Notes under the pieces: generated by a model | Told to the model about the DNA's origin: nothing | What the model saw: the letters and a program-made list of their open reading frames with translations, nothing else | Databases searched by the model: none | Assembly (NCBI GenBank): GCA_903927465.1 | Contig: CAIYMY010000215.1 | Span: 1 to 64,000 of the forward strand | Source of the DNA: an uncultured Rhodospirillales bacterium | GTDB taxonomy: Bacteria; Pseudomonadota; Alphaproteobacteria; Acetobacterales; Acetobacteraceae | Reading direction: 5' to 3' | DNA length: 64,000 bases | In this document: positions 29,910 to 53,660 of the stretch, piece by piece | Numbering within the stretch: position 1 is the first letter of the stretch | Layout of the letters: each line of letters starts with the position of its first letter | Program-made: the position numbers and the translations under genes

Positions 29910-30188
29910 TCATGCTTCCGCTCCGACAGGTATCTTGACCCGACGTTTCGGGTCGCGATGTTCGGCGCACCGGCGACGATCGACGCGCACCGGCGCATTC
30001 CGACGCGGCGTCAGCAGGTCAAACGGGGCACCGCAATCAGCGCAGTGGCAAAGCCACCGTGTCAGTTCGATTTGGCGCCCATCCTTGGTTTTGTGCGGGC
30101 GTATTTCCACACACTCAAATCGCTGGTGCTGCACAAGGGCGATACTGCCAAGCACTGGGCGGCCTGGCAGGGTCAATCGGGTTTTCAT
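29910..30188 (-). CDS. Small Cys-containing phage protein (possible Zn-binding)
   Basis: WLCHCADCGAPFDLLTPRRNAPVRVDRRRCAEHRDPKRR; 4-nt overlap with 30185 gene. Confidence 0.5.
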   Translation of the reverse strand: MKTRLTLPGRPVLGSIALVQHQRFECVEIRPHKTKDGRQIELTRWLCHCADCGAPFDLLTPRRNAPVRVDRRRCAEHRDPKRRVKIPVGAEA

Positions 30189-34853: not shown

Positions 34854-35627
34854 ATGGACACCATCGCAGAACGCCTACGCCGCTTTCGGGAGGCCAAAGG
34901 CATTGATTCCGGGGCAGAATTGGCCCGCCTCGCCGGCGTGCCAGAGGCGACTTATCGCGCCTATGAAAGCGGCCGCCGCCCCCTGACGGCGCGTGCTGCG
35001 CGCGAGCTTGCCGTGCCGCTTGGCATCTCCTGGCAGCTGCTTTTGTTCGGCAAGGAGCCGACCGAGGGCGGCATTGCTATCAATACGCCCGAGGAAGCCG
35101 CGGCGATGCTTGGTCAGCGCGTGCGCCGCAAACCCATGTCGTCCCGCGTGCCGGCTTACACTGGGCCTACCGAGGTCGAGCTGGTGAATATGGCGGGTGA
35201 CAGCTACGCGCTGCTGCCCGTTTATGATGCTGCCGCCTCTGCAGGGCCTGGCTTGGAAATTGACCGTGCCTCGGTGATCTACCGCATTGCCTTTCGCGAG
35301 GATTGGATCCGCAACGTGACGCGCGCCCCGCTGGAGCAGTTGGGCGTCATCACCGTGGATGGGGATTCGATGGAGCCGACGCTGCGTACCGGCGATACAG
35401 TGCTGGTGGATTTCGGACAGAACCAGCCGGGCGACAAGGATGGCATTTACGTCATCCGTACCGGGAATGGGCTGCAGGTGAAGCGCTTGCAGGTGGAGCT
35501 TGGACGCTCGGCGCGGCTGACGGTACTGTCGGACAACCCAGCCTATCAGCCGCAGCGCAATCTGAGCCCCGAGGATATTCAGGTCATTGGCCGGGTGATT
35601 TGGCTGGGGCGGCAGGTCGGATCCTGA
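34854..35627 (+). CDS. CI-like repressor, HTH + S24 peptidase
   Basis: HTH SGAELARLAGVPEATYRAYESGRRPLTARAARELA; S24 GVITVDGDSMEPTLRTGDTVLVDF. Confidence 0.92.
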   Translation: MDTIAERLRRFREAKGIDSGAELARLAGVPEATYRAYESGRRPLTARAARELAVPLGISWQLLLFGKEPTEGGIAINTPEEAAAMLGQRVRRKPMSSRVPAYTGPTEVELVNMAGDSYALLPVYDAAASAGPGLEIDRASVIYRIAFREDWIRNVTRAPLEQLGVITVDGDSMEPTLRTGDTVLVDFGQNQPGDKDGIYVIRTGNGLQVKRLQVELGRSARLTVLSDNPAYQPQRNLSPEDIQVIGRVIWLGRQVGS

Positions 35628-35896: not shown

Positions 35897-36402
35897 CGCA
35901 CAAAACCAAATCCAAATCGGCCGCGACGCCAACATTCACCGCCCCCGCCATTCCGACCGCCGATGTGCTTGGCAGGCTCGCCGCGCTCAAGACCGCCGCG
36001 ATACCCGCCTTGAAGCAGCAATGGCGCGAGCTTTTTGGTGCGGAGCCGCCGCCCTATAATCGGCGCTTTCTGGAAAGCAGGCTCGGCTATCGCATTCAGG
36101 AACTGGCCTATGGCGGGTTGAAGCCGGAAACACTGGCGCGGCTTGAAGTGTTGGGCCAGCAATTCGATGGCGGCAAAATTACCATCCGCCGCATGCGTGG
36201 CGAAGATAGGCCGATCGCCGGAACGATGCTGATCCGCGAGTATCAGGGTGTCGAGTACGTGGTGACCGTGACGCGCAATGGCTATGAATATGCGGGCCAG
36301 CCCTACAAATCGCTCTCGGCCATTGCGCGGGCCATCACCGGCACGCGCTGGAATGGGCGCGTGTTCTTTGGGCTGCGGTCTAGTCGGGGCCTCGCCGCAT
36401 GA
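35893..36402 (+). CDS. DUF2924 protein
   Basis: LKQQWRELFGAEPPPYNRRFLESRLGYRIQELAYGGL. Confidence 0.85.
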   Translation: MTHKTKSKSAATPTFTAPAIPTADVLGRLAALKTAAIPALKQQWRELFGAEPPPYNRRFLESRLGYRIQELAYGGLKPETLARLEVLGQQFDGGKITIRRMRGEDRPIAGTMLIREYQGVEYVVTVTRNGYEYAGQPYKSLSAIARAITGTRWNGRVFFGLRSSRGLAA

Positions 36403-37736
36403 AGCGCGACACGAAGGAGGCCAGCGCGACTTCCGCCGCCACGCGCAAGCTGCGCTGCGCGGTCTATACGCGGAAATCGAGCGAGGAAGGGCTCGACATG
36501 GAATTCAACTCCCTCGATGCGCAGCGCGAGGCCTGCGAGGCATTCATCGCAAGCCAGCGCGCCGAGGGATGGGTGCTGGTGCACGACCGCTACGATGATG
36601 GTGGTATCTCTGGCGGTACGCTCGAACGCCCAGCGCTCAAGCGCATGATTGCCGATATCGAAGGGGGGCTGATTGATGTGGTGGTCGTCTATAAGATTGA
36701 CCGCCTGTCACGATCGCTGATTGATTTCACCAAGCTGGTCGAGGTGTTTGATGCGCATAGCGTGACCTTTGTCTCCGTAACGCAATCCTTCAATACCACG
36801 ACCAGCATGGGACGGCTCACGCTGAACATCTTGCTATCCTTTGCGCAATTCGAACGCGAGGTGATTGGCGAGCGCATTCGGGACAAGGTGGCGGCATCAC
36901 GCAAGCGGGGCATATGGATGGGTGGCTTTGTGCCGCTCGGCTATGACGTGCGCGACCGGAAGCTGCTGGTGAATGAGGCTGAGGCCGTGTTGGTGCGCCG
37001 GATTTTTCAGGGCTTTGCGGAGTTGGAATCCTGCATGAAGCTGGTTCACGCGCTGCGCGCCGAAGGCGCCACCACCAAGCGCGGCAAGCCCCTGAACAAG
37101 AACGACGTCTATCGCATTCTGACAAACCGCGTTTTTCTGGGCGAGGCCGTGCACAAGGGCAATTCCTATCCCGGCGAGCATGACGCCATCATCACGCAAG
37201 CGCAGTGGGACGCGGTGCAGGCCATTCTGAAGATCAATCCGCGCATCAGGATCAACCGGTCACGGAACACCACCGCGCCATTGTTGCGCGGCTTGATCTT
37301 TGACAGCGATGGTAACGCCATGTCGCCGTCCCATAGTCGCGGCCGCAGCGGAAAGCGATATCGCTACTATGTCAGCCAGGCTTTGCTGAAAGGGCCGGTC
37401 ACAGAAAGGCCCGCAATCGCGCGGCTGCCGGCTGGCCAGATTGAAGCCGCCGTGACCGATCAGGTTCGCGCGCTGCTGCGTCAGCCGGAAATGCTGGTCG
37501 GCACCTGGCGGGCGGCACGAGGCATGGCGCCGGAGGTTACGGAGCAGGAGGTGCGGCTGGCGATGGAACGGATCGAGCCCCTGTGGGACGAGCTATTCCC
37601 GGCCGAGCGAACCCGCATCGTGCGGCTGCTGGTGGAACGGGTGGATGTCCGGGCTGAGGGGGCTGCGGTTCGGTTGCGGCTGGACGGGCTTGGCGGCTTA
37701 GTCCGCGACCTTACCGCCCAGGGGGTGGCAGCATGA
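36399..37736 (+). CDS. Large serine recombinase/integrase
   Basis: AVYTRKSSEEGLDMEFNSLDAQREACEAFI...DVVVVYKIDRLSRSLIDF...SFAQFEREVIGERIRDK. Confidence 0.95.
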   Translation: MKRDTKEASATSAATRKLRCAVYTRKSSEEGLDMEFNSLDAQREACEAFIASQRAEGWVLVHDRYDDGGISGGTLERPALKRMIADIEGGLIDVVVVYKIDRLSRSLIDFTKLVEVFDAHSVTFVSVTQSFNTTTSMGRLTLNILLSFAQFEREVIGERIRDKVAASRKRGIWMGGFVPLGYDVRDRKLLVNEAEAVLVRRIFQGFAELESCMKLVHALRAEGATTKRGKPLNKNDVYRILTNRVFLGEAVHKGNSYPGEHDAIITQAQWDAVQAILKINPRIRINRSRNTTAPLLRGLIFDSDGNAMSPSHSRGRSGKRYRYYVSQALLKGPVTERPAIARLPAGQIEAAVTDQVRALLRQPEMLVGTWRAARGMAPEVTEQEVRLAMERIEPLWDELFPAERTRIVRLLVERVDVRAEGAAVRLRLDGLGGLVRDLTAQGVAA

Positions 37737-38228: not shown

Positions 38229-38432
38229 ATGAAGCAAGACGGCAAGGCAGCAAGCATAGAGCGCCAGCCAAAACCCAGCCAACCTAGGCGGGCAATGGTT
38301 GGCATCAGGATGACGCATGACCGAGAAACCGAGGTGAAGGTTGAAGCAGCCGGGCGAGGCGTTTCAGTGGCCACGTTGTTCGACGAAATCTGGCAAGCCT
38401 ATGTCAGGGGGAAAGCGAGGTTGACGCAATGA
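38229..38432 (+). CDS. Small RHH-like protein coupled to sspA
   Basis: VGIRMTHDRETEVKVEAAGRGVSVATLFDEIWQAYVRGK; stop overlaps next ATG. Confidence 0.55.
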   Translation: MKQDGKAASIERQPKPSQPRRAMVGIRMTHDRETEVKVEAAGRGVSVATLFDEIWQAYVRGKARLTQ

Positions 38433-39622
38433 CATCCTCTCCCTTTGCTATAACAGGCGCCAGCGTTGCAAACGCGCCCATTTTCCTTGATGCCAACGCT
38501 ACTACCCGCCCGCTAGCTGGTGTCATTGACATGGTCGCCGTGGTGATGCGGGACAGCTATGCCAATCCATCTAGCGCCCATTGGCTGGGCGATGAAGCGC
38601 GGCGCGTATTGGAGGTAGCGCGGGACGACATCACGGCCCTCTTTCCGGGAATGTTTCCAGAGGCGGTGATCTTCACGTCGGGCGGAACAGAGGGAAACAA
38701 CGCGCTCCTGAACCACATAGGACGAAGTGCTGCAGGGATGACTGTGATTACCACAGCGGTCGAACATCTCTCAGTTTTGCGTCCCGCCCAGACCTTTGCG
38801 ACTGGGGGCGGTAAATGCGTGGTGTTGCCCGTAACGCCAGACGGCCTGGTATCCCAAGACGCAATGCGGGATGCAGTCCGTGAAGCCCGCGGCGATATTC
38901 TGATCAGCGTGCAGTTGGCCAACAGCGAGACAGGCGTGATCCAGCCGATTGGCCAAATGGTCGCCGAGGCAAAGCGCGTGCGCTCGGATATCTTCGTTCA
39001 CTCGGATGTAGCGCAGGCTATCGGGCGCGTTCCGATCGACCTAGACGCGCTGCAGCTGGATGTCGTGACTTTCTCAGGCCACAAAATTCATGGGCCGCAG
39101 GGCATTGGCGCCATGGTCTTCCGGGACCCTAACGAACGAAGGGTAACGCCATTCTTACTTGGCGGGGGACAGGAGCGCGGACTCAGGTCTGGAACTCACA
39201 ATGTCGCAGGTGCGGCCGGGCTCGGCCTCGCTGTAAGGACCCGGGCTTCGGAGTTTGCTGTCGCTGTGTCCCGGTTGGCGGCAATGCGTGACGCGTTCGA
39301 AATGCAGCTCCTCGGGGCAGCGCCTCAGGCATCTGTCAACGGAGTTAGGGCACCTCGAGTAGCGAACACGAGCAGCATCCGTTTCGCTGGCAAAGAAGCC
39401 ATGGAGCTTGTCGGACGACTGGATGCCAAAGGCATTGCGTGTTCCGTCGGCTCTGCTTGCTCATCCGCCAAACCAGTACCTTCTCATGTGCTTATGGCTA
39501 TGGGTCTTTCGCAAGCTGAGGCATTCTCAAGTGTCAGGTTTTCTTTTTCTATTTTTAACTCTATGGACGAGGCTACTCGAGCCGCGAATATTGTCGCCGA
39601 GACATTGCTGGAAATGAAATGA
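38429..39622 (+). CDS. sspA: Cysteine desulfurase, SspA/DndA-like
   Basis: FLDANATTRP; SGGTEGNNALLNHI; SGHKIHGPQGIGAMVFR; active-site loop GSACSSAKPVPSHVL. Confidence 0.88.
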   Translation: MTSSPFAITGASVANAPIFLDANATTRPLAGVIDMVAVVMRDSYANPSSAHWLGDEARRVLEVARDDITALFPGMFPEAVIFTSGGTEGNNALLNHIGRSAAGMTVITTAVEHLSVLRPAQTFATGGGKCVVLPVTPDGLVSQDAMRDAVREARGDILISVQLANSETGVIQPIGQMVAEAKRVRSDIFVHSDVAQAIGRVPIDLDALQLDVVTFSGHKIHGPQGIGAMVFRDPNERRVTPFLLGGGQERGLRSGTHNVAGAAGLGLAVRTRASEFAVAVSRLAAMRDAFEMQLLGAAPQASVNGVRAPRVANTSSIRFAGKEAMELVGRLDAKGIACSVGSACSSAKPVPSHVLMAMGLSQAEAFSSVRFSFSIFNSMDEATRAANIVAETLLEMK

Positions 39623-40545
39623 GCACCGAAACACTGACAAAGGGTCGTTATGAATACGGCCGCCACGAAACTTTCGCGGTGAGGCATGGCTGGCTCGGCA
39701 AGGGCTTAAGCAGGATGGATTCTTCGCCCGCAGGATTCAATGCTGATGATACAGCCGTTATTGAGCTGGGTCTCGGCAGCCGAATGGTGAAGTCACTCCG
39801 CTATTGGCTCGAGGCAAGCGGTGTGGGCGAACTTCGCTCAGTCGTTGTTGATGGGCGCAAGGCGCGCGAACTTCACACTAGTGCTTTGGGGCTGGTCGTC
39901 CAAGCTCGAGACCCGTTCATGGAGTACCCCGCGACTTGGTGGTTTGTGCACCTCAACCTTGCAAGGCGATCCGGCAGCGTTTGGGGCTGGTTTTTCAATG
40001 ATTTTCGTGAGCGGTTGTTCGAGCGTCCGACCTGTGTCGAAGCCTACCTTAGCCACCTTCGTATCAACGCCGCCAATGAACCCACCTTGTCTGTGGCACA
40101 GCGCGATATTGCCTGCCTCTTGGCCACGTATGGCACAGGAGCTGCGAATGATGTTCGCGACCCGGAGGATGGTACCGCGTCGCCGTTGCGTGATTTGGGG
40201 CTCGTCCTCCGGCAGGAGGAAACCGGCCGTTTCGAGAAGACGCGTCCACTCGATGAAATCCCGATAGAAGTCTTTCTCGCCTGCGCTGCAGCCCAGTCGG
40301 ATGCCTTGCGGCTTGAAACTCTGTCTATGGGCGAGCTGCTCGGACGGCGCGGTGGGCCAGGATTGCTGCTCGGCATGACCAGCGAGGCGATTGAAGACCT
40401 TTCGGCTCGTGGCGCGAGAGACTTTGGTAACCTTGGTGTAACGCTTGATCTTCTTGGTGCCGAGCGACGCCTCCGCGTGCCGATGATGGGCGGAACGCAG
40501 TTCTGGCTCGATCGCCATTTTCAGCGTCTGGGAGGTGGCGGATGA
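39619..40545 (+). CDS. sspB: DUF4007-family protein, SspB-like
   Basis: HETFAVRHGWLGKGL...ADDTAVIELGLGSRMVKSLRYWLEASG. Confidence 0.82.
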   Translation: MSTETLTKGRYEYGRHETFAVRHGWLGKGLSRMDSSPAGFNADDTAVIELGLGSRMVKSLRYWLEASGVGELRSVVVDGRKARELHTSALGLVVQARDPFMEYPATWWFVHLNLARRSGSVWGWFFNDFRERLFERPTCVEAYLSHLRINAANEPTLSVAQRDIACLLATYGTGAANDVRDPEDGTASPLRDLGLVLRQEETGRFEKTRPLDEIPIEVFLACAAAQSDALRLETLSMGELLGRRGGPGLLLGMTSEAIEDLSARGARDFGNLGVTLDLLGAERRLRVPMMGGTQFWLDRHFQRLGGGG

Positions 40546-43500
40546 GCGGTCGCGTCATCTTTCGGTCGGTAAACCTCAAGGACGATATCGAGAGTCCGGG
40601 CCGGCTCCTGCACTACCAACCGACTAAGCGGTCTGTACCTGTGGTGCGGGCCGTACTGGGTGGCGGTGCGAATATGGTCATTGCAGCCTACGGGAGCGGA
40701 AAATCGCTTGCCGCGGGAGTCGGCAGCCTCCTGGTCCTAAACAACAACAAAGCTGCTCTCAACGATCTAGTTATCCGCCTAGCGGCAGTCGACGCGCAGG
40801 TCGGTGCTCTAGCCGCGTCGCGTCTTGGTGAAAGAGGCCAAGGGCGCGTGATGGTATTGAGTGGGCACATTCGTGATCTACCAGGCGATCTGTGCGAGGC
40901 GCTCGACATTCCGCGAAAGCGAGGAATTGAGGCCGTCTTGGATGCGCTCGATAGCCTGCCTCAAGTTGATCGTGTCGCAATCGTCTGGGACGAGTTCGGA
41001 CGCCACCTTGAAGGCATCGTCAACGAAGGCCGAGCACGTGAGCTCGATGCTGTACAGCGTCTCGCCGAATGGGCAGTGCGGGCTCGCAAGCCATCGGCTA
41101 GCTTCACTCTTCTCTTGCATCAAAACCTTCTGGCCTATGCGTCCGCCCTGAATCAAACCTCTCGAAATGAATGGCGCAAGATCGAGGGGCGCTTCGAACA
41201 GATCCGGTTCGTCGAGGACAGCCAGGAACTCTATGAGCTTGCCGCGACCGTGATCTCCGAGACACGGCCTGAGGGCGTCCAGCCCCATCGCGATACGGTA
41301 CTGCGATCGGTTGCTGAGCGAGTGGTAGATGCGGGTTGGTTCGATGGCCTTAGCGATATGGGTCGGGTCGCAGACCTGCTCGGGCGGGCATATCCCCTCT
41401 CGGCGGCCGCGCTGCAGGTCTTGCCGCGCCTAGTAGCTCGGATCGGCCAGAACGAGCGCAGCCTCTTTGCATTCATTGGGACGGCAGACCTCTCGCGACC
41501 CATTGGCATGGAAGAGATTTACTCGAATTTCTCAGATGCAATGCGGGCCGACGTTGGCATCGGCGGCTCTCACCGGCGCTGGGTGGAAGCTGAAACGGCC
41601 CGGAGCAGGGCGGACGACGGCGTTGAATTGGAGGCGCTCGCTGCGGCATGCCTTCTGCAGCTTGGCATCGATGGGGAACGTCGCAAGCTCACTCGGGGCG
41701 TTCTCGAAACGGCAGTCGCAAGCCGCGGAATCCGCCCCGAAGATGCGATTAAGGCAGTTGACTCACTAATAGCGCGAAAGCTTCTCCTGCACCGCCAGTT
41801 GAATGATGACGTCTCGATTTGGCACGGCGCTGATCTTGATTTGCCCGCACGGATTCTGGAAGAGCGTGCACGGCGCTTGGAGGGTTTCGACCTCATAGCC
41901 TTTCTCGATAAGCACCACCCCGCGCCATTCATTCGCCCAACCCGTCATAATCTCCGCTACGGCACTGCTCGATATCTGCAGGGCCACTACGTGAAGGCAT
42001 CCGCGATCAACGCTGGGCCTGATCGGCTACCCGAGGCGCAGCCTCATTCAGAGTGGGGGCGCGTATTCTTCGTTCTAGCCGACACTGCAGAAGAGCTGTC
42101 GCGCGCACGGCGCAAAGTTGAGGCGGGCTGGCCTGGTTGGTCGCGCGCAATCGTCGCCCTTCCAGAGGAACCCGTATCCATCACTGAAGCCGTTCTAGAG
42201 GTAGACGCGCTGCTAGCGCTACAGAGGGACGATAGCCTGCGAGCTGAAGATCCGCTGGTGGGACAGGAAGTGACGGAGCTTCTGGCAGTCGCTCAGCGGC
42301 AGCTTTCGGTGATGCTACACCGTCTGACGACAGATCGTCCGGTCACCACTGAATGGTGGCAAGGCGGCGCAAAGGTGGAACTGACCGTGGACCGCCCCGC
42401 AGGCATCGCCGCATCCGATCTGCTGGACAAAGAGTACGACGCAACCCCGCGCATCTTCAACGACCAGATGATGCGCAACCGACTATCGAGGCAAATGGAG
42501 ACGGCTCGCATCCGTGTCCTAACGCGCCTGTTGGAAAAAGGGCATGAGCCGCGGATCGGCTACCGTGACGATCAGCTTTCATCCGCTGAGGGTTCTGTCT
42601 TCCGGACGCTTCTCGATGCCACGGGGCTGCATCAATCAGATGGAGAGATCGGTCGGTTTGCGGAGCCTGAGGAAATACCGGACGTCGGGCTAAGGGGCGC
42701 TTGGGCATTGGTGCGCGATTTCTTCCAAGTTCCTGGCGAAAAGTCGCTGCGAGACATCGTTGGCCAGCTTGCTGCCCCTCCGATTGGCCTGCCAGGCGGC
42801 GTTATCCCGATCCTAGTCGTGGCCGGCCTGAAGGCATTTGGACGAGCGGTCAGTCTATATACAGATGGCGCCTATGTATCTGATCTTCTAGGATTTGCTG
42901 CGAGCCGAATGTTCCTTGAACCGGAGAAAACCACGGTTGAAGTTCACCCAACTGATGCGGCGACCCTGAGCTACCTCTCAGAATTCGCCTACATCTTCAG
43001 CCACGCTCGTCCGTCCGCTCTGGACGAGCATGTCCGGTTTGCAGGTGATGCACTGGCGGCGTGGCGGAGTAGCCTGTCGGACGGCGTCAAGCGGTCGAGG
43101 CGCCATACTGACGACGGCCGCATGCTTCTGCGCGTGATTGGGGAGGCTGTGGATGCGCCGAAATTGCTATTCCGCGACCTCATTACACGGTGCGGGACGC
43201 GTTTCCCGCGTGCTGGGCAGTACGCATCCACGCTGAAGATCATCGAGAAGGCTAGGAACGATATTGATCGTTTGATCGATGGCTACGTCCGGGATGCCGT
43301 GGAGGTTGTTGGGGAGGTGTTGAGCTTGGAGGCGGGGGACGACCTGGTGGCCGGGGTTCAGGCCTGGGTTGCATGCTTCGATGTTCCCGCCTTCATAGTG
43401 CGGGAGGATGTCACCATGATCGACAAAGCCATCCTGCGCACAGCTCGTGACACCATGAATGGGCGATACTCTGCAGAAAGTCTGGCTCGTGCCGTCAGCT

Positions 43501-43733
43501 CCGTACTTCTTCAACGAGGGGTCGAGCGTTGGGAGGATGGAACGCCAAATCAGATGCGGCGTCTGCTTCGGGAATGCCGGGCAAGGATCGAGGATGCCGC
43601 CCTATCAGCACCGATTCCTGATGCCGCGCTGGTCCCCATTATCCATGCACGAATCCGCGATCTTCAGTCTAAGCTGAACACATTGAATGACGTAGCGCCG
43701 CCGCTTCAGGTCGCTGCTGGGAGGACGAGATGA
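40542..43733 (+). CDS. sspC: 1063-aa P-loop ATPase, SspC-like
   Basis: Walker A IAAYGSGKSLAAG, Walker B RVAIVWDEFG; position between SspB- and SspD-like genes. Confidence 0.82.
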   Translation: MSGRVIFRSVNLKDDIESPGRLLHYQPTKRSVPVVRAVLGGGANMVIAAYGSGKSLAAGVGSLLVLNNNKAALNDLVIRLAAVDAQVGALAASRLGERGQGRVMVLSGHIRDLPGDLCEALDIPRKRGIEAVLDALDSLPQVDRVAIVWDEFGRHLEGIVNEGRARELDAVQRLAEWAVRARKPSASFTLLLHQNLLAYASALNQTSRNEWRKIEGRFEQIRFVEDSQELYELAATVISETRPEGVQPHRDTVLRSVAERVVDAGWFDGLSDMGRVADLLGRAYPLSAAALQVLPRLVARIGQNERSLFAFIGTADLSRPIGMEEIYSNFSDAMRADVGIGGSHRRWVEAETARSRADDGVELEALAAACLLQLGIDGERRKLTRGVLETAVASRGIRPEDAIKAVDSLIARKLLLHRQLNDDVSIWHGADLDLPARILEERARRLEGFDLIAFLDKHHPAPFIRPTRHNLRYGTARYLQGHYVKASAINAGPDRLPEAQPHSEWGRVFFVLADTAEELSRARRKVEAGWPGWSRAIVALPEEPVSITEAVLEVDALLALQRDDSLRAEDPLVGQEVTELLAVAQRQLSVMLHRLTTDRPVTTEWWQGGAKVELTVDRPAGIAASDLLDKEYDATPRIFNDQMMRNRLSRQMETARIRVLTRLLEKGHEPRIGYRDDQLSSAEGSVFRTLLDATGLHQSDGEIGRFAEPEEIPDVGLRGAWALVRDFFQVPGEKSLRDIVGQLAAPPIGLPGGVIPILVVAGLKAFGRAVSLYTDGAYVSDLLGFAASRMFLEPEKTTVEVHPTDAATLSYLSEFAYIFSHARPSALDEHVRFAGDALAAWRSSLSDGVKRSRRHTDDGRMLLRVIGEAVDAPKLLFRDLITRCGTRFPRAGQYASTLKIIEKARNDIDRLIDGYVRDAVEVVGEVLSLEAGDDLVAGVQAWVACFDVPAFIVREDVTMIDKAILRTARDTMNGRYSAESLARAVSSVLLQRGVERWEDGTPNQMRRLLRECRARIEDAALSAPIPDAALVPIIHARIRDLQSKLNTLNDVAPPLQVAAGRTR

Positions 43734-44542
43734 CTATCATCGCTAAAATGGAGGCAGCAGCCCAAGACCTCGAGGCCCGGCATATCGTTCCGCTATCAGG
43801 CGGGAAAGACAGCACTGCCTTGGCCATATTTTTGGCCCAGCACTATGGCCACCTTAAATTCGAATACGTTTTTTCGGATACGGGAGCCGAGCTGCCAGAA
43901 ACTTATGATTATTTCGAGCGCCTAGAGCACATCCTAGGGTGCAAGGTCACGCGTATCACGGCTCTCGACATGCTTGGCGTGGCCGAGAAGCAAGGACGTA
44001 GCCCTTTTGACGTTGCCCTCTATGACCATTTCTCGGGATTTCTGCCGAGCCCGCGTTCACGGTGGTGCACACGGATGCTGAAGATCCATCCCTTCGAAAA
44101 GTATATCGGCTCCGACCGCGCTTATTCGTATATTGGGATTCGGGCTGACGAGAATCGTTCTGGATATACGGGGAACGGCAAGCCTGTACTTCTGTCCGAG
44201 CAACCGAACATTACCCCTGTCTATCCATTCAAGGACGAAGGTTTGGGGATCGGTGACATCCAACGGTTGCTGGATGACTCCGGCTTGGGGCTTCCCGCCT
44301 ACTATGAATGGCGATCGCGATCCGGCTGCTACTTCTGCTTCTACCAGCAGGTAGGTGAGTGGCAGGGCCTCAAGGAGCGTCATCCAGGGCTCTACGAGAA
44401 GGCCAAGACATATGAGACGGGCAAGAATGGGCGCCGTTACACCTGGGTCGATGGGCGCTCCCTCAACGATGTTGAGAAGATGCCGAGGCGTGCCGTGAAG
44501 GCCAAGTCGGACGAGGAGGGCTGCGCCATATGCCACCTCTAG
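43730..44542 (+). CDS. sspD: PAPS-reductase/ATP-pyrophosphatase family, SspD/DndC-like
   Basis: PP-loop PLSGGKDSTALAIFLAQHYG; FSDTGAELPETYDYFERLE; Cys-rich SGCYFCFYQQ and CAICHL. Confidence 0.9.
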   Translation: MTIIAKMEAAAQDLEARHIVPLSGGKDSTALAIFLAQHYGHLKFEYVFSDTGAELPETYDYFERLEHILGCKVTRITALDMLGVAEKQGRSPFDVALYDHFSGFLPSPRSRWCTRMLKIHPFEKYIGSDRAYSYIGIRADENRSGYTGNGKPVLLSEQPNITPVYPFKDEGLGIGDIQRLLDDSGLGLPAYYEWRSRSGCYFCFYQQVGEWQGLKERHPGLYEKAKTYETGKNGRRYTWVDGRSLNDVEKMPRRAVKAKSDEEGCAICHL

Positions 44543-44573
44543 AGGCGAGCCAGGCAGACGGTGCTGCCTAGCA

Positions 44574-46538
44574 ATGAAGTCGGGCGTAATAGGGAAGCGT
44601 GTTGGTCGCACGCTCTACCTTGGCGCTATCGCTCTGCAGGAACTCGAATCCGATCAACGTGACAAAGTGAGTCGGGCAGTTGAATTCGCAGGCAGCTCAG
44701 TGTGGAATGTATGCAAATTAGAGGGGAATTACGTCTCCCTCCTTCTCTACGAAGACTTCGACGAAGTGGCGTTTCCCGCGCTGATATCCTCGACCCGGGT
44801 CGATCTTCGAAGCGGGAGGGTTTCGACCACTGACTATAGTGGCCGGGCCAACCCCCCTATCCTGCATCGGAAAGAGATGCTGCTCGCCCAGGATGATTCG
44901 CGACGGCCGGCATTCGCATCCCTGACCAGAATGGCCGAAGAGCACGGATTGTTTTCCGATGCGCATTTGATCGGAACACGTCAGGCCTGGCTCGCCAAAG
45001 TTTCCGAGGCAGGTCTGGAGGTAAGGGGACCACGCTTAGTTTCAGCGGGGGCGACACCGCTACAAATTGGCAGGCACAAGACGGCAATCATTCGCCGCGA
45101 CCTATCCCAGCCCATGCAATTGCTAGTGGCGAACGGCATCGTCGCGACAAGTCGTTCAGTGTTCGACTACGGCTGTGGTCAGGGAGACGACGTCGCCGCC
45201 TTGGTAACCAACGGGTTCGAGGCTTTCGGATGGGATCCCCATCACGCCAAAGAAGGCCCTCGGCGACCAGCTGATGTCGTAAACCTAGGTTTCGTTCTGA
45301 ACGTAATCGAGGACCGTCACGAGCGCGTTGAGACCCTTAAGGTCGCTTGGTCGTTCGTGCGCCACGCGTTGTGCGTCGCCGTTATGACCGCGGGGAAGAG
45401 CAGTTTTGCCGGGCTGCGCCCCTATCTCGATGGGCATGTCACTTCCCGCGGTACCTTCCAAAAATATTACGGCCAGCAGGAGCTGAGAGACTTCCTCCAA
45501 GATGTTCTCGGCGAAGTACCGGTTGCGCTGGCGCCCGGCATCTTCGCTGTCTTCAAGGACAAGGAGCTCGAGCAGGAAGTCCTTCTGCGACGACGGTCGC
45601 GCGCGATCGTCCAGCCGGCCGGGATGCGGGCGCCGATCCGGGAGCGGATAACCGCTTTCAAGCCGAGGCCCGGCGTTGCTGAGAGGGCGAAGGTCGAACT
45701 GGAAATTCTCTGGACTGCCATGCTGGAGCGGGGGCGTAGCCTGGATGCCGAAGAGTTTCCTGATGGGCTACTCGGCCGGCTGCTGGCCGCCAGGATCTCG
45801 GCCGGCCGCGCCACCCAGTTTTGCCTCTCCGACCTCTTTGATCAGACCGACTTGGTGCTTGCAGCCACAACCAGGCGCGAAGATCTGCTCGTCCACTCTG
45901 CGCTTAACCTGTTTCCTGGCGCCGCGCCTTACACGAGCCTTCCAAAGCCAATCCAACGAGATATCAAGTCGTTGTTCGGCAGCCATGCCAGTGCGATGCA
46001 GTCGGCGCGGGAGCTCTTGTTTTCTGCTGGGAAGCCAGAAGCAATCCGCGCGGCGGCGGAAGTATCTGGGAAAGGCGGCGCAGGGGCGATGCGAGACGAG
46101 CGCACCTTCCGGTTCCAAGCTCAAGCCCTGACCCGCCTTCCAGCGGTGCTGCGAGTGCTTGTCGGTTGTGCTGGCATTCTGAGGGGGGGCGTGGAGGGTG
46201 CCGACTTCGTAGACATCAAGCTCGATGTTCCGCGTGTGACCTTCCTGACCTGTGTCGACGCGTCGGCCCGCTTGCCGATTGTTTCCGAGCGAACCCGGGT
46301 CGATCTCGGCCGGCTTAGATCAACGACTGAGAAGCCCGAAGGGCTAGTTCTTTACTTAAAGGGGCGATATTTGCCGCTGGATGCCGCCGAACGTGAAAGC
46401 CAGCTGAAGTTCGATCGGCAGCTTGTGGCTGCAGGGTTGGTGTCTTCGGAAGGACGGGGACCGCGATTCTCCGAGCTCCAAACCATGCTCATGCGACGCA
46501 AAGAGGCACGTAGCGCGAGTCCGCCAAATGATGCGTGA
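44574..46538 (+). CDS. Phosphorothioation-associated putative methyltransferase
   Basis: KTAIIRRDLSQPMQLLVANGIVATSRSVFDYGCGQGDDVAALVTNGFEAFGWDPHH; located 31 bp after sspD-like gene. Confidence 0.82.
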   Translation: MKSGVIGKRVGRTLYLGAIALQELESDQRDKVSRAVEFAGSSVWNVCKLEGNYVSLLLYEDFDEVAFPALISSTRVDLRSGRVSTTDYSGRANPPILHRKEMLLAQDDSRRPAFASLTRMAEEHGLFSDAHLIGTRQAWLAKVSEAGLEVRGPRLVSAGATPLQIGRHKTAIIRRDLSQPMQLLVANGIVATSRSVFDYGCGQGDDVAALVTNGFEAFGWDPHHAKEGPRRPADVVNLGFVLNVIEDRHERVETLKVAWSFVRHALCVAVMTAGKSSFAGLRPYLDGHVTSRGTFQKYYGQQELRDFLQDVLGEVPVALAPGIFAVFKDKELEQEVLLRRRSRAIVQPAGMRAPIRERITAFKPRPGVAERAKVELEILWTAMLERGRSLDAEEFPDGLLGRLLAARISAGRATQFCLSDLFDQTDLVLAATTRREDLLVHSALNLFPGAAPYTSLPKPIQRDIKSLFGSHASAMQSARELLFSAGKPEAIRAAAEVSGKGGAGAMRDERTFRFQAQALTRLPAVLRVLVGCAGILRGGVEGADFVDIKLDVPRVTFLTCVDASARLPIVSERTRVDLGRLRSTTEKPEGLVLYLKGRYLPLDAAERESQLKFDRQLVAAGLVSSEGRGPRFSELQTMLMRRKEARSASPPNDA

Positions 46539-46746
46539 GAGTCCGCACAGTCTGCCGAGTTGCCGACGCGGCCCGCAGCAGGTCCAGTCCACCACGCGCA
46601 TAAATTTGCGACAGGCGGTGGAGGGCCAGGTCATCTTGGTAGTTCGAGGCCAGCACATGGCGAGTAGCCCCGGGCCCGGTTTGCTGGATCGGCGGCGAGG
46701 GCGTCGGCGCCTGGGACTTCAACTGCCTTAAGTGATGTGCGGTCAT
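46489..46746 (-). CDS. Possible 85-aa small protein translationally coupled to PLD gene
   Basis: ATG overlaps PLD stop (ATGA); ends convergent into MTase gene. Confidence 0.3.
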   Translation of the reverse strand: MTAHHLRQLKSQAPTPSPPIQQTGPGATRHVLASNYQDDLALHRLSQIYARGGLDLLRAASATRQTVRTLTHHLADSRYVPLCVA

Positions 46747-47732
46747 CGTAGCGAAACTATCTCTGAGTAGTTTGGCGTATCCATTTTGAATCGGTCGCCG
46801 GCGAAGTAAATGAGCCAGCGCAGCAGGACCTGGAGCGCGGCCTGCCTTTGCTCGTGGGACGTGTCCGGCAGGAAAGCCCGCAGTAGGTTTGTCAGCGCGC
46901 CGAATCGCTGCGGATTCCCGAGTGCGGCCTCAAGAGCCCAGACGGCGGGTGTCTCCAGCAGGCGCGCCCTGACCAGCTCGTCGAATGCGGTCCGACTAAG
47001 CGCCGGAGGGATCTGGAGTCGTAGCAGATCTACGAGCGCTGGGTCGTTTGCGCGCGCGGAAGAGAGCCATTCGGCGTCCTGGTAGAGCGGAAATAGGCGA
47101 TCCGGCGAGCGAAACTGCGGTATCCACGCGCGCGCCGGCATATCCATCCGCGTCGCGTCCGGCTCGTACGCATCGGGATCGGTCTCCGGTGTATTGGGCG
47201 CCAACGCATCCGCCGCTAGCTGAATGGCTGCCGCCTCCACCGATGTAGCTCGCCGGCTCCTGCTGCGCAGCTCTGCTTGCAGAAGCGACGCAGTGGCAGG
47301 ATCGAGGTCGATGCGTGACATCAGTTCGAAGTTCGGAGCTGCAGAGAGGCCAAGGCCGGCGGAAGTGACGTTGGCAGAGCCGACCAGGGCTCGCGTACCG
47401 TCGACGAGCACGAGCTTGGCATGCAGCTCATCGATGAGGCCGAGCTTTCCCCCGACCGCCTCTATGTCGCTGAGCGCATCGACGTCACTGACACCTCGGG
47501 CGACTTCATCGGGGCGCCATCGAGTGTAGGCCACGAGTTCCACCTCCGCAGGCAGCGGCGCGAGCAGATGCCCGAGCGCGGTCCGCTTGATGAACGGGGA
47601 AACCACGAGCACCGAACGGCTCGCCGACGCGACGAGATCTCGCGCAATGGCATGAAGCCCGTGCCAGTGCAGCACGCCCCTACTCTTCGGCCTCGCGCAT
47701 GAAGTCGCGGGCGATACGGCCCCACTCGCCAC
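46743..47732 (-). CDS. PLD-family (DrmC-like) nuclease/phospholipase-like protein
   Basis: HKD-type motif ELHAKLVLVDGTRALVGSANVTSAGL; ARDLVASASRSVLVVSPFIK. Confidence 0.82.
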   Translation of the reverse strand: MASGAVSPATSCARPKSRGVLHWHGLHAIARDLVASASRSVLVVSPFIKRTALGHLLAPLPAEVELVAYTRWRPDEVARGVSDVDALSDIEAVGGKLGLIDELHAKLVLVDGTRALVGSANVTSAGLGLSAAPNFELMSRIDLDPATASLLQAELRSRSRRATSVEAAAIQLAADALAPNTPETDPDAYEPDATRMDMPARAWIPQFRSPDRLFPLYQDAEWLSSARANDPALVDLLRLQIPPALSRTAFDELVRARLLETPAVWALEAALGNPQRFGALTNLLRAFLPDTSHEQRQAALQVLLRWLIYFAGDRFKMDTPNYSEIVSLR

Positions 47733-49464
47733 GAATGTCCTCGAGCTCGACCTTCTGATCGCCGGAGGCCTCGTCCTCCATGCGTGCCCATGCGGTCAGC
47801 AGCAGCTTCAGTCCCTGCAGGGCCGGATTCTCCACTGCCTGCGCGTCCGCGTCCCGGAGAAGGTCGAAAAGGTGGCCGTGCGCCGGATGCTTGGTGTTGA
47901 TCGTGATGATGATCACGCCGGCCTTCGAGGTCACGTCGAATACGGAGAATCCCGGAAAGTCGGCGTGCCGGAACAGGAACTTGATCTTCCGGCTGACGTA
48001 GTCGACCGCTATCTCCCGCGCGACGCTCGGATCTACGCCCTCCTGCTCGATTTCGGCCGTCAGTTCGTCGGTGCGTTCCTCGGGTGAAGCGTTCTCGGCG
48101 TTGTCGCTCGATCCGGTCTGACCCAGCTTTTCTTGACGGCGCCGGAGCGCGCGAGTGGCGATGTCCTCAGCCGTGTTCGTCGAGCCGCCACGCTGTCCCT
48201 TCTCCTTGCGCTCGCCCTCGCGCATGCGGCCAATCTGCGCGCGCATGGTTTTCAGGAGCGTCTCGATCGTACGGTTGAGTTCGTAGATCGGGAGGCGCGG
48301 GTCGTGGTCGTCCTCGAGCTGCCGAGTGTATTCAGCCACGCTCAAACCCTCAGCGGTAGCGTCCTGCTCTAGACTGAGCTTGGTAAACTCGGTCGCGGAC
48401 TGCTTATTGTTGGTCACGCCGAAGACGGCGTCTAGCGCTGGCTCGAAGCTGATCTCGATGCCCCACCACCGCTCACGGGGCTCCGATGGGATCTCGAAGC
48501 TGCGGTTGAGCTCGAGCTCGCGCCGAGCCCTGACGACGGAGATGCCGACGTTCTTCGCTGCGAACTGGCCGATGGCCGACGAGCCGCCGAGGATCCGCGT
48601 CTCGGTCTTGCAGATCGATGCCGTGACGGTGATCGGGTGCCGCCCTCCACCATAGCCGATCTCAATGATCTGCGGATCCCCGAATGGCTCGAAGGCCGGC
48701 TCCGCATCATACGGGGTGGGTGCTGCGGTGCCGCTCATCAGCATCAGCGGATCCGTCGGTCGCACGAAGCGATCTACGTGGTTGTTGCGGAGCGATCCCA
48801 CGGCTTCATACGCCGCAAGGCGGATCGTCGCATCGCCGGAGTCGATGAAGTAGCGGTAGATTCGGCCGATGATGAGTTCGGCGTTCCTCAGCAGCGCGGT
48901 GCTCTGCTTGTATCGCATGAGGTCTAGGTCGGACCAGACGACGAGCGTCCCACTGTCCTCGATCTCGGTCGAGATGAGGTCTAACCATTCCGGAGGCAGC
49001 GTCGACGCCGTAGGTTCCGGCACCTCCTGCATTGTCTGGGCCTCGACCTCATCGATGTCGAGATGCGTATGCCAGGTACGTCCGTTCTGCCAGGTCCACA
49101 CGTCCACGCGCCTGCACTGCGAGATCGAGGAGTTCGGTAGGCCCATGCCGAACTTGCCGATACCCTTCTGGTTCGCTGGATCCCTATGCGTGCCTACGCC
49201 GAACTGCAGCGCACGCCTCAGCGTGTCGCGATCCATCCCCGATGCATTGTCGTAGACTGCCACACGGTCGAGACGGCGCCTCCCTCCGGCTTGGCTCCCG
49301 GTCTTATCAATGCAAATCACCTCGACGGCGACACGACGATCGGTTCCCTCGCCGGCTTGGATTGAGTTGTCGATCAGCTCGGCGAGAGCGTAGGAGGCGT
49401 CCTTGTAGCCCGAGCTCCGCATTGCGTCGATCGAGAGGTGCTGTGGGATGATCGCGTAGGTCAA
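47680..49464 (-). CDS. GHKL (HATPase) ATP-binding protein
   Basis: ASYALAELIDNSIQAGEG; AVYDNASGMDRDTLRRAL; NQKGIGKFGMGLPNSSISQCRRVDVWTW. Confidence 0.9.
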   Translation of the reverse strand: MTYAIIPQHLSIDAMRSSGYKDASYALAELIDNSIQAGEGTDRRVAVEVICIDKTGSQAGGRRRLDRVAVYDNASGMDRDTLRRALQFGVGTHRDPANQKGIGKFGMGLPNSSISQCRRVDVWTWQNGRTWHTHLDIDEVEAQTMQEVPEPTASTLPPEWLDLISTEIEDSGTLVVWSDLDLMRYKQSTALLRNAELIIGRIYRYFIDSGDATIRLAAYEAVGSLRNNHVDRFVRPTDPLMLMSGTAAPTPYDAEPAFEPFGDPQIIEIGYGGGRHPITVTASICKTETRILGGSSAIGQFAAKNVGISVVRARRELELNRSFEIPSEPRERWWGIEISFEPALDAVFGVTNNKQSATEFTKLSLEQDATAEGLSVAEYTRQLEDDHDPRLPIYELNRTIETLLKTMRAQIGRMREGERKEKGQRGGSTNTAEDIATRALRRRQEKLGQTGSSDNAENASPEERTDELTAEIEQEGVDPSVAREIAVDYVSRKIKFLFRHADFPGFSVFDVTSKAGVIIITINTKHPAHGHLFDLLRDADAQAVENPALQGLKLLLTAWARMEDEASGDQKVELEDIRGEWGRIARDFMREAEE

Positions 49465-51251
49465 CTAGTCGGTTCCTCTTTCCAAATGTCGTTCCAGAAT
49501 TCGAATCCCTCGACCAAGCTGCGGAAGCCCGGCACCCGTTCCACCACCGTGACAATGCGGCAGTGGTCGTTGCCACCGGCTTTCGGCCCGCGTGCCGCGC
49601 GGCCGATCATTTGGCTGTAGAGCGCCACCGACGTGGTCGGCCTGGTGATGAATGCCACGTTGGTCCTGGGAGCGTCAAACCCGGTTGTGAGGACGCCGTA
49701 GTTGCACAACACAGAGATTTCGTCCGTGTCCTTGTAGCGCTGGATGATCTGCCGGCGGCGGTCGGACGGCGTTCCAGAGGTGACCGCTGCGGCCGAGACA
49801 CCCTTCAGCTTCAGCACGCTCGCGATCAGGCCAGCGTGCTCCACCGACAGCGCAAACATTATCACTTTGCCGCCTGCGGCGACCTCCGCCGCGATGGCGT
49901 CGACGATGAGCAAGTTGCGCGCATCATCGGCCGCAAGGTTGTCGAGCACGTGCTGAGGCAGGTCGAAACCTTCTGCGAGCTTCTGGCTTTCCTGTGTGGT
50001 GAGCTCGATGTCGCCACGCATGTCGAAGGGGAGTTCAACGAACTCCATGCGCGCGAGGTAGCCCTGTTCCACGAGGTAGTCGATCGGGTTGGCATAGCCC
50101 TCAACGTCGAGCGTTACCTTCTGGCGATCAAAGAACGCAGCGAGGGCGAGATCCGCCTGGACGTCTTTCAGTGAACGGCCCGGGGTCGCGGAAAGGCCCA
50201 GAACGCCGGTGCCGGGGTTACGCTGCATAAGGTTGATGAGGTGGGAGTAGGTGGGGGCGATCGCCTGGTGCGCCTCGTCCATCACGATGAGCCGGAGACG
50301 ACGTGCAAGATCGAGAAACTCGTTCTGCCTGCGCAAACTGTCTGAGTACATCAGCGCCAAACTACCCACCACAAAGCCGTCGCGCACGGACGCGAAGTCG
50401 CGGATACGGTTGGATCCGTAGTGTCGGTGGATCGTGAGCTCGCGTGATCCAATTGCGGCCCAGGCCTTCGCCGCCTCGTCGAAGGCCTGATCGCACAGCT
50501 CCTCTGAGTGGGCGAGCCACAGGATCACCTGGCCGTCCGCAGCGCCGCGAAGCAGGTCGACGATAGTGGTCATCGCCGTTCGGGTCTTACCTGCGCCGGT
50601 TGGCATGTGAAGTAGGACGCGAGCGCGGGGCCGGGCGAGCTTCTCGCGCACCTTCAGCGAGGCGACACGTTGGTGCGGAAAGAGGGTGTACGATGGCTTA
50701 AGCTTTAGCTGCGCGCTTTTCTGCTCGGTCTCTTCGGGGCGCTCGTAAGCGACACCGAAGTAAGCGTGGAGCGTGGCGATCAAGCTGTCTGAGCGGCTGA
50801 TGTCGACCTCGGCGATGCTGGTGAACGGGTCGCTCCGGTCTAGGCCAAGAATCTCACAGAGGTTATCAGCTTCGTCAGACTTCAACGACGCCAGCGCCAG
50901 TTTGCGGACCTGCGGTGACTGCAGTGCCTGACTTGCGCCGAAACTGTCTACCACCAGCTGAGCGAGGCCAGTTGCGCTAACGGTCCTGCTCTCGATACGC
51001 CCGAGGAGGTCGACGGCGCCACGACCCACCACCTCATATAGCGAGGTGACGCCGGCTCGCGAAAGCGCTTGCGTCAGTCGTTTCGACAATCGCCCCCCGG
51101 CAAATCTGTTACGAAAGCTTTTTAGCACTGCGGCTACGGCAAAGATAGAGGCGACGTCGCGCACATTTCCGAACGCGAGCGCTACCAGAGCACGCTGAAC
51201 GGAGACTTTGGGCCGTCTTGCTTTGGCAGCCCAGTGAACGAACGTCCGCAT
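49461..51251 (-). CDS. DEAD/DEAH (SF2) helicase
   Basis: LHMPTGAGKTRTAMTTIVDLL; LIVMDEAHQAIAPTYSHLI; TPGRSLKDVQ; SQMIGRAARGPKAGG. Confidence 0.92.
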   Translation of the reverse strand: MRTFVHWAAKARRPKVSVQRALVALAFGNVRDVASIFAVAAVLKSFRNRFAGGRLSKRLTQALSRAGVTSLYEVVGRGAVDLLGRIESRTVSATGLAQLVVDSFGASQALQSPQVRKLALASLKSDEADNLCEILGLDRSDPFTSIAEVDISRSDSLIATLHAYFGVAYERPEETEQKSAQLKLKPSYTLFPHQRVASLKVREKLARPRARVLLHMPTGAGKTRTAMTTIVDLLRGAADGQVILWLAHSEELCDQAFDEAAKAWAAIGSRELTIHRHYGSNRIRDFASVRDGFVVGSLALMYSDSLRRQNEFLDLARRLRLIVMDEAHQAIAPTYSHLINLMQRNPGTGVLGLSATPGRSLKDVQADLALAAFFDRQKVTLDVEGYANPIDYLVEQGYLARMEFVELPFDMRGDIELTTQESQKLAEGFDLPQHVLDNLAADDARNLLIVDAIAAEVAAGGKVIMFALSVEHAGLIASVLKLKGVSAAAVTSGTPSDRRRQIIQRYKDTDEISVLCNYGVLTTGFDAPRTNVAFITRPTTSVALYSQMIGRAARGPKAGGNDHCRIVTVVERVPGFRSLVEGFEFWNDIWKEEPTS

Positions 51252-51661: not shown

Positions 51662-51752
51662 TGGCGGATGAGGTGGGATTCGAACCCACGATACGCTTTT
51701 GACGTATACGCACTTTCCAGGCGCGCGCCTTAGACCGCTCGGCCACCCATCC
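51662..51752 (-). tRNA. tRNA-Ser(GGA), CCA encoded
   Basis: Minus strand GGATGGGTGGCCGAGCGGTCTAAGGCGCGCGCCTGGAAAGTGCGTATACGTCAAAAGCGTATCGTGGGTTCGAATCCCACCTCATCCGCCA; anticodon GGA, long variable arm, 7-bp acceptor stem. Confidence 0.95.
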
Positions 51753-52368: not shown

Positions 52369-53660
52369 CAGGCTGCTGAAAAGCTGTCATTGAGCGTCGC
52401 AATTTTCGCGCGCGAGTATGTTTTCAACGCTGCCTGCGCCTGGGCACAAGCATTTTCAGTGGTTTTTTGGCCCTGTCGGCTCGCTCAGGACAGAGTCCCG
52501 GCATCACGCCGCCACCACCAGCAACTTCGGCAGGCGAACCAGGTTGTAAGCTGCCATCGCCAGAGTGAACTGCCAGTCCACCTTGGGCAGCCCGCGATGG
52601 CGCGCCTTGCGCAGCCCAGCCACTGTCTTTGCCCAGCCGAAGGCCTCCTCGATCCGCTTGCGGATCCGCAGGCTGATGGCATAGCCAGCATGGCGCGTGG
52701 TCCGGCCATCAATCGCCGAACGCCGCCCATTGGTATTCTGCGCCACATGAGGTGTCACGTTGATCTCGCGGAGTTCGGCCACGAAATCCTGCGTATCAAA
52801 GCCTTTATCGCCGCCCAGCGTGACCTTCTGCTGTCGGTCGGCATGCGGTTCTATCAGGTGCCGCGCGGCCAAACGCTCCGCATGGCCAGAGGCGCGTGTA
52901 GCAACAGCACCGACGATCAGGCCATTGCGATTTTCCATCAGCGCATGCCCCATGAACGCCAGCTTGGCTTCCTTGCCGCGTCCCTTGCGCTAAAGCCGGG
53001 TATCAGGATCGGTGGTTGATGCGTGGGTCTCGTTGCTGCGCTTCTGGCCGTGGAAGTTTTGCTCGCCATTGCGGCCCGCGCCAGGCGGCGGGCCTGGGCC
53101 GTCCTTCGGTCGGAAGCTTTTGGTGCTGGCCCACGCTTCCAGCAGCGTCCCATCAACCGAAAAATGCTCGCTTGAAAGCAGGGCCTTTACTTTCGGCTGC
53201 GCCAGTAACGCGCGCATGAACTCCGAGGCCACGTCGCCTTGCAACAGGCGGTCGCGGTTTTTTGTGAAGGTCGTGGCGTCCCATACGGGGTCATCAACGC
53301 CGAGGCCGACGAACCAGCGAAACAGAAGGTCAAACTCGATGCGTTCGACCAACTGCCGCTCCGAACGGATCGACTAGAAAGCTTGCAAAAGCAGAGCGCG
53401 GAGCAGTCGCTCCGGCGGAATGGATTCCCGACCGAATGGCGAATAGAGCGCGTCAAAGTCTATCGAGAGATCAGCCAGCGCACTATTCACCAGGCCGCGA
53501 ATAACGCGCAGCGGATGGTCAGGACGCATCCGCTTTTCAAGATCAACATAGCTGAACAAGGAACCAGCCACCGCGTCATTGCCACGCATCGCAACCTCGA
53601 CCAAATGCAACGACAGTGAATCATGAATACAGAAATCAGGCTACGAATTTCAGCAGTCTG
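52369..53660 (-). mobile_element. IS5-like element, ~1292 bp, flanked by CTAA
   Basis: Ends CAGGCTGCTGAAAA / CAGACTGCTGAAAT (rc); CTAA duplicated at 52365-52368 and 53661-53664. Confidence 0.75.
52504..53610 (-). pseudogene. IS5-family transposase with two in-frame TAG codons
   Basis: ORFs 53374-53610, 52990-53352, 52504-52953 are in one frame, separated by TAG at QAF*SIRSERQL and DTRL*RKGRGKEAKLAFMGHALMENR. Confidence 0.85.

Follow-up and report, generated by a model that had tools for sequence, protein, structure and literature searches.

Which restriction arm works with most of the sspBCD phosphorothioation modules found in bacteria? A survey of 2,678 sspBCD loci found SspFGH adjacent at 7.3% and SspE at 7.4%, with both in 36 genomes. 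In Acinetobacter baumannii, a study published in 2025 reported Ssp to be the commonest defence system, yet 5,518 of 5,530 occurrences had no Ssp nuclease. Such surveys leave most sspBCD modules without a defence partner. The same question is posed by a 64,000-nucleotide stretch from an uncultured Rhodospirillales bacterium (contig CAIYMY010000215.1; the whole stretch is referred to as the window), in which an sspABCD operon faces genes for a superfamily 2 (SF2) helicase, a GHKL ATPase and a phospholipase D (PLD) family protein. In our judgment the locus is probably an Ssp-type restriction-modification (R-M) system based on phosphorothioate (PT), with a third, undescribed restriction arm that would attack unmarked DNA, PT protecting the host.

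Gene content and the three facing genes

The cluster consists of two convergent operons, with sspABCD and a TIGR04096 gene on the plus strand and the helicase, GHKL and PLD genes on the minus strand. The eight genes are as follows, with E values of profile and structure matches.

38429..39622, plus strand: sspA, cysteine desulfurase (PADLOC SspA, 1e-102; Aminotran_5, 2.6e-63; solved SspA 6m4j, 4.5e-45)
39619..40545, plus strand: sspB, DUF4007 DNA nickase (PADLOC SspB, 3e-60; Pfam DUF4007, 6.6e-46; solved SspB 6juf/6lb9, 3e-16)
40542..43733, plus strand: sspC, large P-loop ATPase of the BrxC/SspC type (PADLOC SspC, 5.3e-119; BrxC, 5.4e-52)
43730..44542, plus strand: sspD, PP-loop ATP pyrophosphatase with SGGKDS motif (PADLOC SspD, 8e-89; PAPS_reduct, 3.7e-10)
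44574..46538, plus strand: TIGR04096 DNA phosphorothioation-associated putative methyltransferase, 654 residues, accessory (NCBIfam TIGR04096, 2.9e-134, 448 bits against a cut-off of 150)
46743..47675, minus strand: PLD (HKD) family putative nuclease, third module gene (annotated open reading frame to 47732; PLDc_2, 3.5e-6)
47680..49464, minus strand: GHKL ATPase of the MORC/MutL type, with Bergerat fold, S5 region and C-terminal extension (HATPase_c_3, 8e-21)
49461..51089, minus strand: SF2 helicase/translocase of the RadD/SauUSI type (annotated open reading frame to 51251; ResIII, 3e-20; Helicase_C, 2.6e-14; RadD, 5e-34)

Successive 4-nt overlaps join sspA, sspB, sspC and sspD, a gap of 31 nt separates sspD from the TIGR04096 gene, and the helicase and GHKL genes again overlap by 4 nt. 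An original prediction, made from the sequence alone, had placed all eight genes and their overlaps correctly; its span of 38229-51251 holds for gene content, and the start is corrected to 38429. Judging from relatives, two genes probably begin inside their annotated frames: the helicase gene at a TTG at about 51089, and the PLD gene at a GTG (47675) that closely follows the stop codon of the GHKL gene. The complete Ssp core, comprising SspA, the DUF4007 protein SspB, the SspC ATPase and the PP-loop protein SspD, lies in a single operon and is named as such by PADLOC, as predicted.

The three facing proteins have recognizable folds and intact motifs. The PLD protein contains a single HKD motif, and residues H104, K106, N121, N134 and E136 are invariant in 35 homologues; across the collected PLD genes, HxK and NxE are found in 68 of 68 and GSxN in 65. 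Its profile matches SauUSI over residues 8-202, and the AlphaFold2 (AF2) model, with a predicted local distance difference test (pLDDT) score of 90.9, matches NucT, Nuc, SauUSI and the NgoAVII R subunit. The active-site residues and the modeled fold place it among the PLD (HKD) nucleases. For the GHKL protein, profile matches are to MORC4 (4e-10), MORC2 and MORC3, and Foldseek matches its AF2 model (pLDDT 88.7) to SMCHD1, MORC2 and MutL. All three of its motifs are recovered by simple pattern in 100 of 111 sequences, and the Bergerat motifs together with a modeled S5-type second domain assign it to the MORC/MutL type. The helicase profile matches solved RadD at 2.5e-23, its nearest named relative, and SauUSI at 1.5e-9; Walker A and DEAH are intact in the window and in all 64 of 64 PLD-type loci. 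With these catalytic motifs, the parts of the module look active.

A first concern is whether these genes are a known effector set. The SspE, SspF, SspG and SspH models of PADLOC (version 2.0, 2023) give no match to the three minus-strand proteins, and the SspE model matches no other window protein, consistent with the predicted lack of an SspE-like gene in the cluster. In Agrobacterium tumefaciens CFBP7129 (L004), the SspF, SspG and SspH models instead match three other genes at full length (E = 1e-237, 6e-219 and 0), which adjoin the helicase-GHKL pair and sspD/sspC. The module and SspFGH occur together at 10 collected loci including L004, and SspE is also present at several module loci. Since the same loci carry the module beside SspFGH or SspE, the three are distinct sets that can be stacked. 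The original prediction had proposed PLD, GHKL and helicase as a separate arm beside the Ssp core, which they are, and had left their orthology to SspF, SspG and SspH undecided; the PADLOC results and the shared loci answer this in the negative. A divergent SspFGH would also be a three-gene cassette by sspBCD, but coexistence refutes it, as do the fold assignments, given the Walker A motif of SspF and the FtsK-like C-terminus of SspH (PMC8092258), and its probability is negligible. PADLOC searches likewise led us to reject orthology to SspE, Pbe or DISARM.

Recurrence and linkage to ssp

On plasmids from Mesorhizobium, Pleomorphomonas, Roseobacter, Pannonibacter, Hymenobacter, Trichormus and Treponema, tblastn recovered GHKL relatives over their full length, with neighbours like those in the window. 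Among 84,980 species genomes scanned, 267 GHKL relatives were detected, of which the best-scoring 80 loci were kept, a choice that may favour ssp-linked ones; IMG/VR gave seven more. Annotation with hidden Markov models (HMMs) covered 93 GHKL loci, drawn from drafts and metagenome-assembled genomes, and 59 of these are well flanked, with at least 6 kb on either side. In this subset the helicase is present at 58 loci, sspB, sspC or sspD lies within about 10 kb at 54, and at least two of them do so at 51. The background is far lower, as sspD was matched in only 14 of the 399 genomes sampled from the phylum, and the linkage of the two operons is therefore far beyond chance. The order helicase-GHKL-third gene is kept in either the same (36) or the opposite (23) orientation to ssp among non-redundant loci. 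By record titles, loci with the module and the ssp core span about 11 phyla: Pseudomonadota, Planctomycetota, Armatimonadota, Chloroflexota, Gemmatimonadota, Cyanobacteriota, Bacteroidota, Actinomycetota, Acidobacteriota, Spirochaetota and Bacillota. The arrangement, first described as of unusual composition, is recurrent and widespread.

These counts bear on the idea that the three genes form a separate defence system and have no more in common with ssp than a shared defence island. The variable orientation would fit, as would the GC content at third codon positions (GC3), which is 0.60-0.66 for the ssp genes and the methyltransferase vs 0.72-0.81 for the minus-strand module; because of this difference the two window operons may have different histories. 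An island would, however, give many other neighbours, and the association with ssp holds at nearly all well-flanked loci and across phyla. We regard this explanation as very unlikely.

A fairer, though small, estimate of frequency comes from a sample unbiased for the module, in which five phyla were searched for SspD and the neighbourhoods of 56 ssp loci were read. Helicase and GHKL genes are found at 16 of these loci (29%), one of them also with SspE; SspFGH is found at 12 and SspE at 3 in all. The remaining class of 26 with none of these may hide divergent effectors, as the HMM thresholds were self-set. The third module is thus as common as SspFGH in this sample (16 vs 12), which is uneven, the module being present at 0 of 16 Chloroflexota loci and 5 of 10 Pseudomonadota loci.

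The sample also clarifies the role of the TIGR04096 protein (METHYLTRANSFERASE), which had been predicted to join the modification arm as a methyltransferase. The family is already named as PT-associated. Its gene occurs at 9 of the 56 unselected loci regardless of effector: it accompanies the module at 3 of 16 loci and SspFGH at 2 of 12, and is present at 4 of the 26 loci without known effector. Because of this spread, we rejected it as a component of the new restriction module. On this distribution it is an accessory of PT systems, outside the module. The class I S-adenosylmethionine-binding motif DYGCGxGxD is conserved, and catalytic motif IV, either [DNS]PP[YFW] (N6/N4) or PCQ/PCN (C5), is absent from all 25 homologues. 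The protein is probably not a standard DNA base methylase.

Other features of the collected loci were seen in passing. At the Nostoc-type loci (L044, L046, L054, L066, L068, L079, L088 and L090) the helicase genes are 5'-truncated and sspC is sometimes broken, and these are read as decaying copies in related species. A programmed frameshift in the Nostoc helicases, for which the ORF start is conserved at 8895, was considered and rejected, as the frames show that the 5' part of the helicase is lost. A recurring gene pair separates sspD from the module, the first gene encoding an unassigned protein of ~170 residues and the second being of the DndB/DGQHR type (L006:8333-11154; L007:15722-17502; L057; L084).

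The nuclease position and the proposed mechanism

The third gene is exchangeable. At 16 loci (L004, L013-L022, L024, L028, L030, L031 and L070) it encodes not a PLD protein but one of ~360 residues with an invariant E..D..QVK pattern, a motif that suggests a restriction endonuclease (REase) fold. The N-terminus of this REase-like protein matches the PADLOC model of an endonuclease effector of the cyclic oligonucleotide-based antiphage signalling system (CBASS) at 1.7e-10, and no relatives in the PDB were found by sequence. The helicase lacks both Walker A and DEAH at 16 of 16 REase-type loci, and SspFGH adjoins 10 of the 16 vs 0 of 48 PLD-type loci. Since the GHKL proteins of these 16 loci share about 50-57% identity with that of the window, the swap may have been a single evolutionary event. 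Because the nuclease is swapped, and the helicase motifs are lost with the REase version, the third gene would encode the cutting subunit, with the PLD protein predicted to need a live motor and the REase version not. At L047, L058 and L075, SspE stands beside helicase-GHKL genes without PLD; it may fill the nuclease slot in such loci.

Exchange of a conserved nuclease for another nuclease fold is expected of an effector. It speaks against a role of the three genes in modification or genome upkeep, in which they would repair or remodel DNA nicked by SspB, or the MORC-like protein would compact or silence it. The closest structural relatives of the GHKL protein, the eukaryotic silencing ATPases MORC2 and SMCHD1, would suit such a role, as would the proximity of the helicase to the repair protein RadD; but 40 of the 56 sampled ssp loci lack the module, which is thus not needed for modification. 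We consider upkeep an improbable function.

In the restriction system that we propose, SspA-D would add sulphur to the host genome at selected sites and on a single strand, giving PT such as CpsCA. The MORC-type GHKL protein would clamp DNA as an ATP-gated dimer, the helicase, of the RadD/SauUSI type, would translocate along the duplex, and cutting or nicking would fall to the PLD protein, acting as a dimer whose subunits share one active site. DNA lacking PT would be engaged and damaged, and host DNA would be spared through its PT marks. PT formation is expected here from family membership, and complex formation, anti-phage activity and protection by PT are likewise what the gene content predicts. 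There are precedents for the parts, as a PLD nuclease and an SF2 ATPase make a working restriction enzyme, in one chain in SauUSI and in two in CglI and NgoAVII (PMC7913695). Iyer and colleagues showed prokaryotic MORC-type genes to share R-M operons with SF2 helicases, in some cases also with HKD domains, and proposed that they loop DNA (PMC2292703).

The original prediction had called the system PT-sensing. In such a scheme, host PT would switch on the GHKL and helicase ATPases, the PLD protein would damage phage DNA, and the module would be inert without PT. SspE, the first described Ssp partner, is PT-activated (PMC8092258), and SspE lies beside helicase-GHKL genes at several loci. Nothing in the sequence shows PT activation, and a protective role of PT is no less likely; PADLOC, Pfam and NCBIfam searches recognised no SspE-like PT-binding module in them. 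CglI and NgoAVII, which are PLD/SF2 enzymes, act on unmodified DNA, and this also counts against PT sensing. By analogy, we favour protection over activation because SspFGH and DndFGH work by protection, acting on unmodified DNA (PMC8092258). We hold PT sensing to be possible but rather doubtful.

Several observations weigh against a PT-guided restriction arm of the kind proposed. A PT-reading domain was not identified in the helicase, GHKL or PLD protein. SspE occupies the third-gene position in L050 (L050:4307-6616), which would also suit PT sensing. Helicase-GHKL pairs occur in four genomes without detected SspD (L064, L072, L078 and L083); these also lack a PLD or REase-like gene, a weak hint for PT protection, and L072 has a 202-residue ORF with an ExK motif downstream of the pair. 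Finally, distance matrices correlate strongly within SspBCD (r = 0.88-0.93), and GHKL and helicase reach r = 0.68, whereas the correlation between the ssp and restriction modules is moderate (r = 0.2-0.4). Strict co-evolution of the two modules is not supported by these values; partners have been exchanged while linkage was kept. A helicase-GHKL pair without ssp genes nearby, as at L064, L072, L078 and L083, is also seen at L067; such pairs may be relics.

The probable restriction arm invites a broader and more tentative proposal, to which we give limited credence. The module would supply the effector that a large share of 'orphan' sspBCD loci lack, through a MORC-like ATP-gated clamp that captures PT-lacking DNA and an interchangeable nuclease. 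This nuclease would be either PLD, paired with a live motor, or a Cap4-like REase, whose own motor is dead but which often has the FtsK-like motor of SspFGH at hand, and PT effectors would be wired together at one locus. The ssp region of A. baumannii global clone 2, which has no SspE, is reported with a 'histidine kinase' gene (PMC12421847) that may correspond to this module's GHKL gene. In any case, the helicase-GHKL-nuclease module is a concrete, clonable candidate effector for sspBCD loci and, if the assignment is true, would link bacterial MORC-type ATPases to PT epigenetics.

Genomic setting and comparison with known systems

An apparent prophage adjoins the ssp cluster at window positions 1-38095, with the following genes.

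7912-9960: capsid/protease
9969-11456: lambda-family portal
15975-17930: GpA terminase
30185-32416: primase/helicase
34854-35627: S24 repressor
36399-37736: large serine recombinase, shortly upstream of sspA

The ssp cluster could be cargo of this prophage or a neighbour. Duplication of an attachment site at tRNA-Ser (51662-51752) was considered and rejected, no att repeat being found there. Two N6/N4 DNA methylase genes in tandem, one with a ParB_N domain, lie inside the prophage region (22079-24764), and transposase-like ORF pieces at the tRNA-Ser end of the island (52504-53352) are probably an insertion-sequence remnant.

Other systems share individual parts with the window cluster. In DndCDEA-PbeABCD (PMC6459918; re-annotated in PMC10853773), likewise a PT system, the restriction side also combines an SF2 helicase with a PLD (HKD) domain, but these are fused in PbeA, PbeC is an SMC-like ABC ATPase in place of a GHKL protein, which Pbe lacks, and modification is by Dnd rather than Ssp; in the window, PLD and helicase are separate, and the PADLOC PbeA models match solely the helicase region (2.8e-23). 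DISARM is also a multi-gene R-M-like system with a PLD-family protein, DrmC, whose PADLOC model gives weak matches to the window PLD protein (7e-13), mostly around the HKD motif. The window cluster differs in having a RadD-like helicase, no DUF1998/YprA-type helicase pair and no DISARM methylase, and no window protein matches DrmA or DrmB. Type-4 bacteriophage exclusion (BREX) has SspB-, SspC- and SspD-like PT machinery in common with the window, in whose cluster PglZ and BrxL were not found. At L009 (3809-15666) the module itself stands beside a BREX-4-like PT core, composed of a BrxP-type sulphurtransferase with an Fe-S motif and SspB and SspC homologues, with no PglZ or BrxL annotated nearby; L040, L053 and L074 resemble it, and L040 has a 590-residue protein with winged-helix matches between GHKL and PLD.

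SauUSI, CglI and NgoAVII resemble the window in a dimeric PLD-family nuclease powered by an SF2 ATPase, the two-chain arrangement of CglI and NgoAVII being the one found here, but they recognise their targets through an SRA or B3 domain, work with base methylation and have neither GHKL protein nor PT. The prokaryotic MORC/paraMORC operons (Iyer 2008, PMC2292703) combine a GHKL+S5 ATPase with an SF2 helicase, sometimes bearing an HKD domain, and a nuclease, much as here; in the part of that source that covers them, they are described with base methylases, and no link to PT or DUF4007 is reported.

The closest systems overall are those built on the same SspABCD core. SspABCD-SspE differs in its effector, a single DUF262/DUF1524 (GmrSD-type) protein, for which the window cluster has no gene. 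SspABCD-SspFGH of Vibrio anguillarum FF-93 (PMC8092258) also has an adjacent three-gene cassette and is likely alike in attacking PT-lacking DNA; none of its proteins, among them the FtsK/HerA-like SspH, is homologous to the SF2 helicase, MORC-type GHKL or PLD nuclease described here. The module is absent from the PADLOC 2.0 detection library, and no description of it was found in the open-access literature for SspABCD with GHKL, PT with PLD, GHKL and helicase, or PT with MORC, an earlier report in a subscription journal being possible. The SspABCD core and the TIGR04096 family are known, and the three-gene set, a probable restriction arm, seems to be new.

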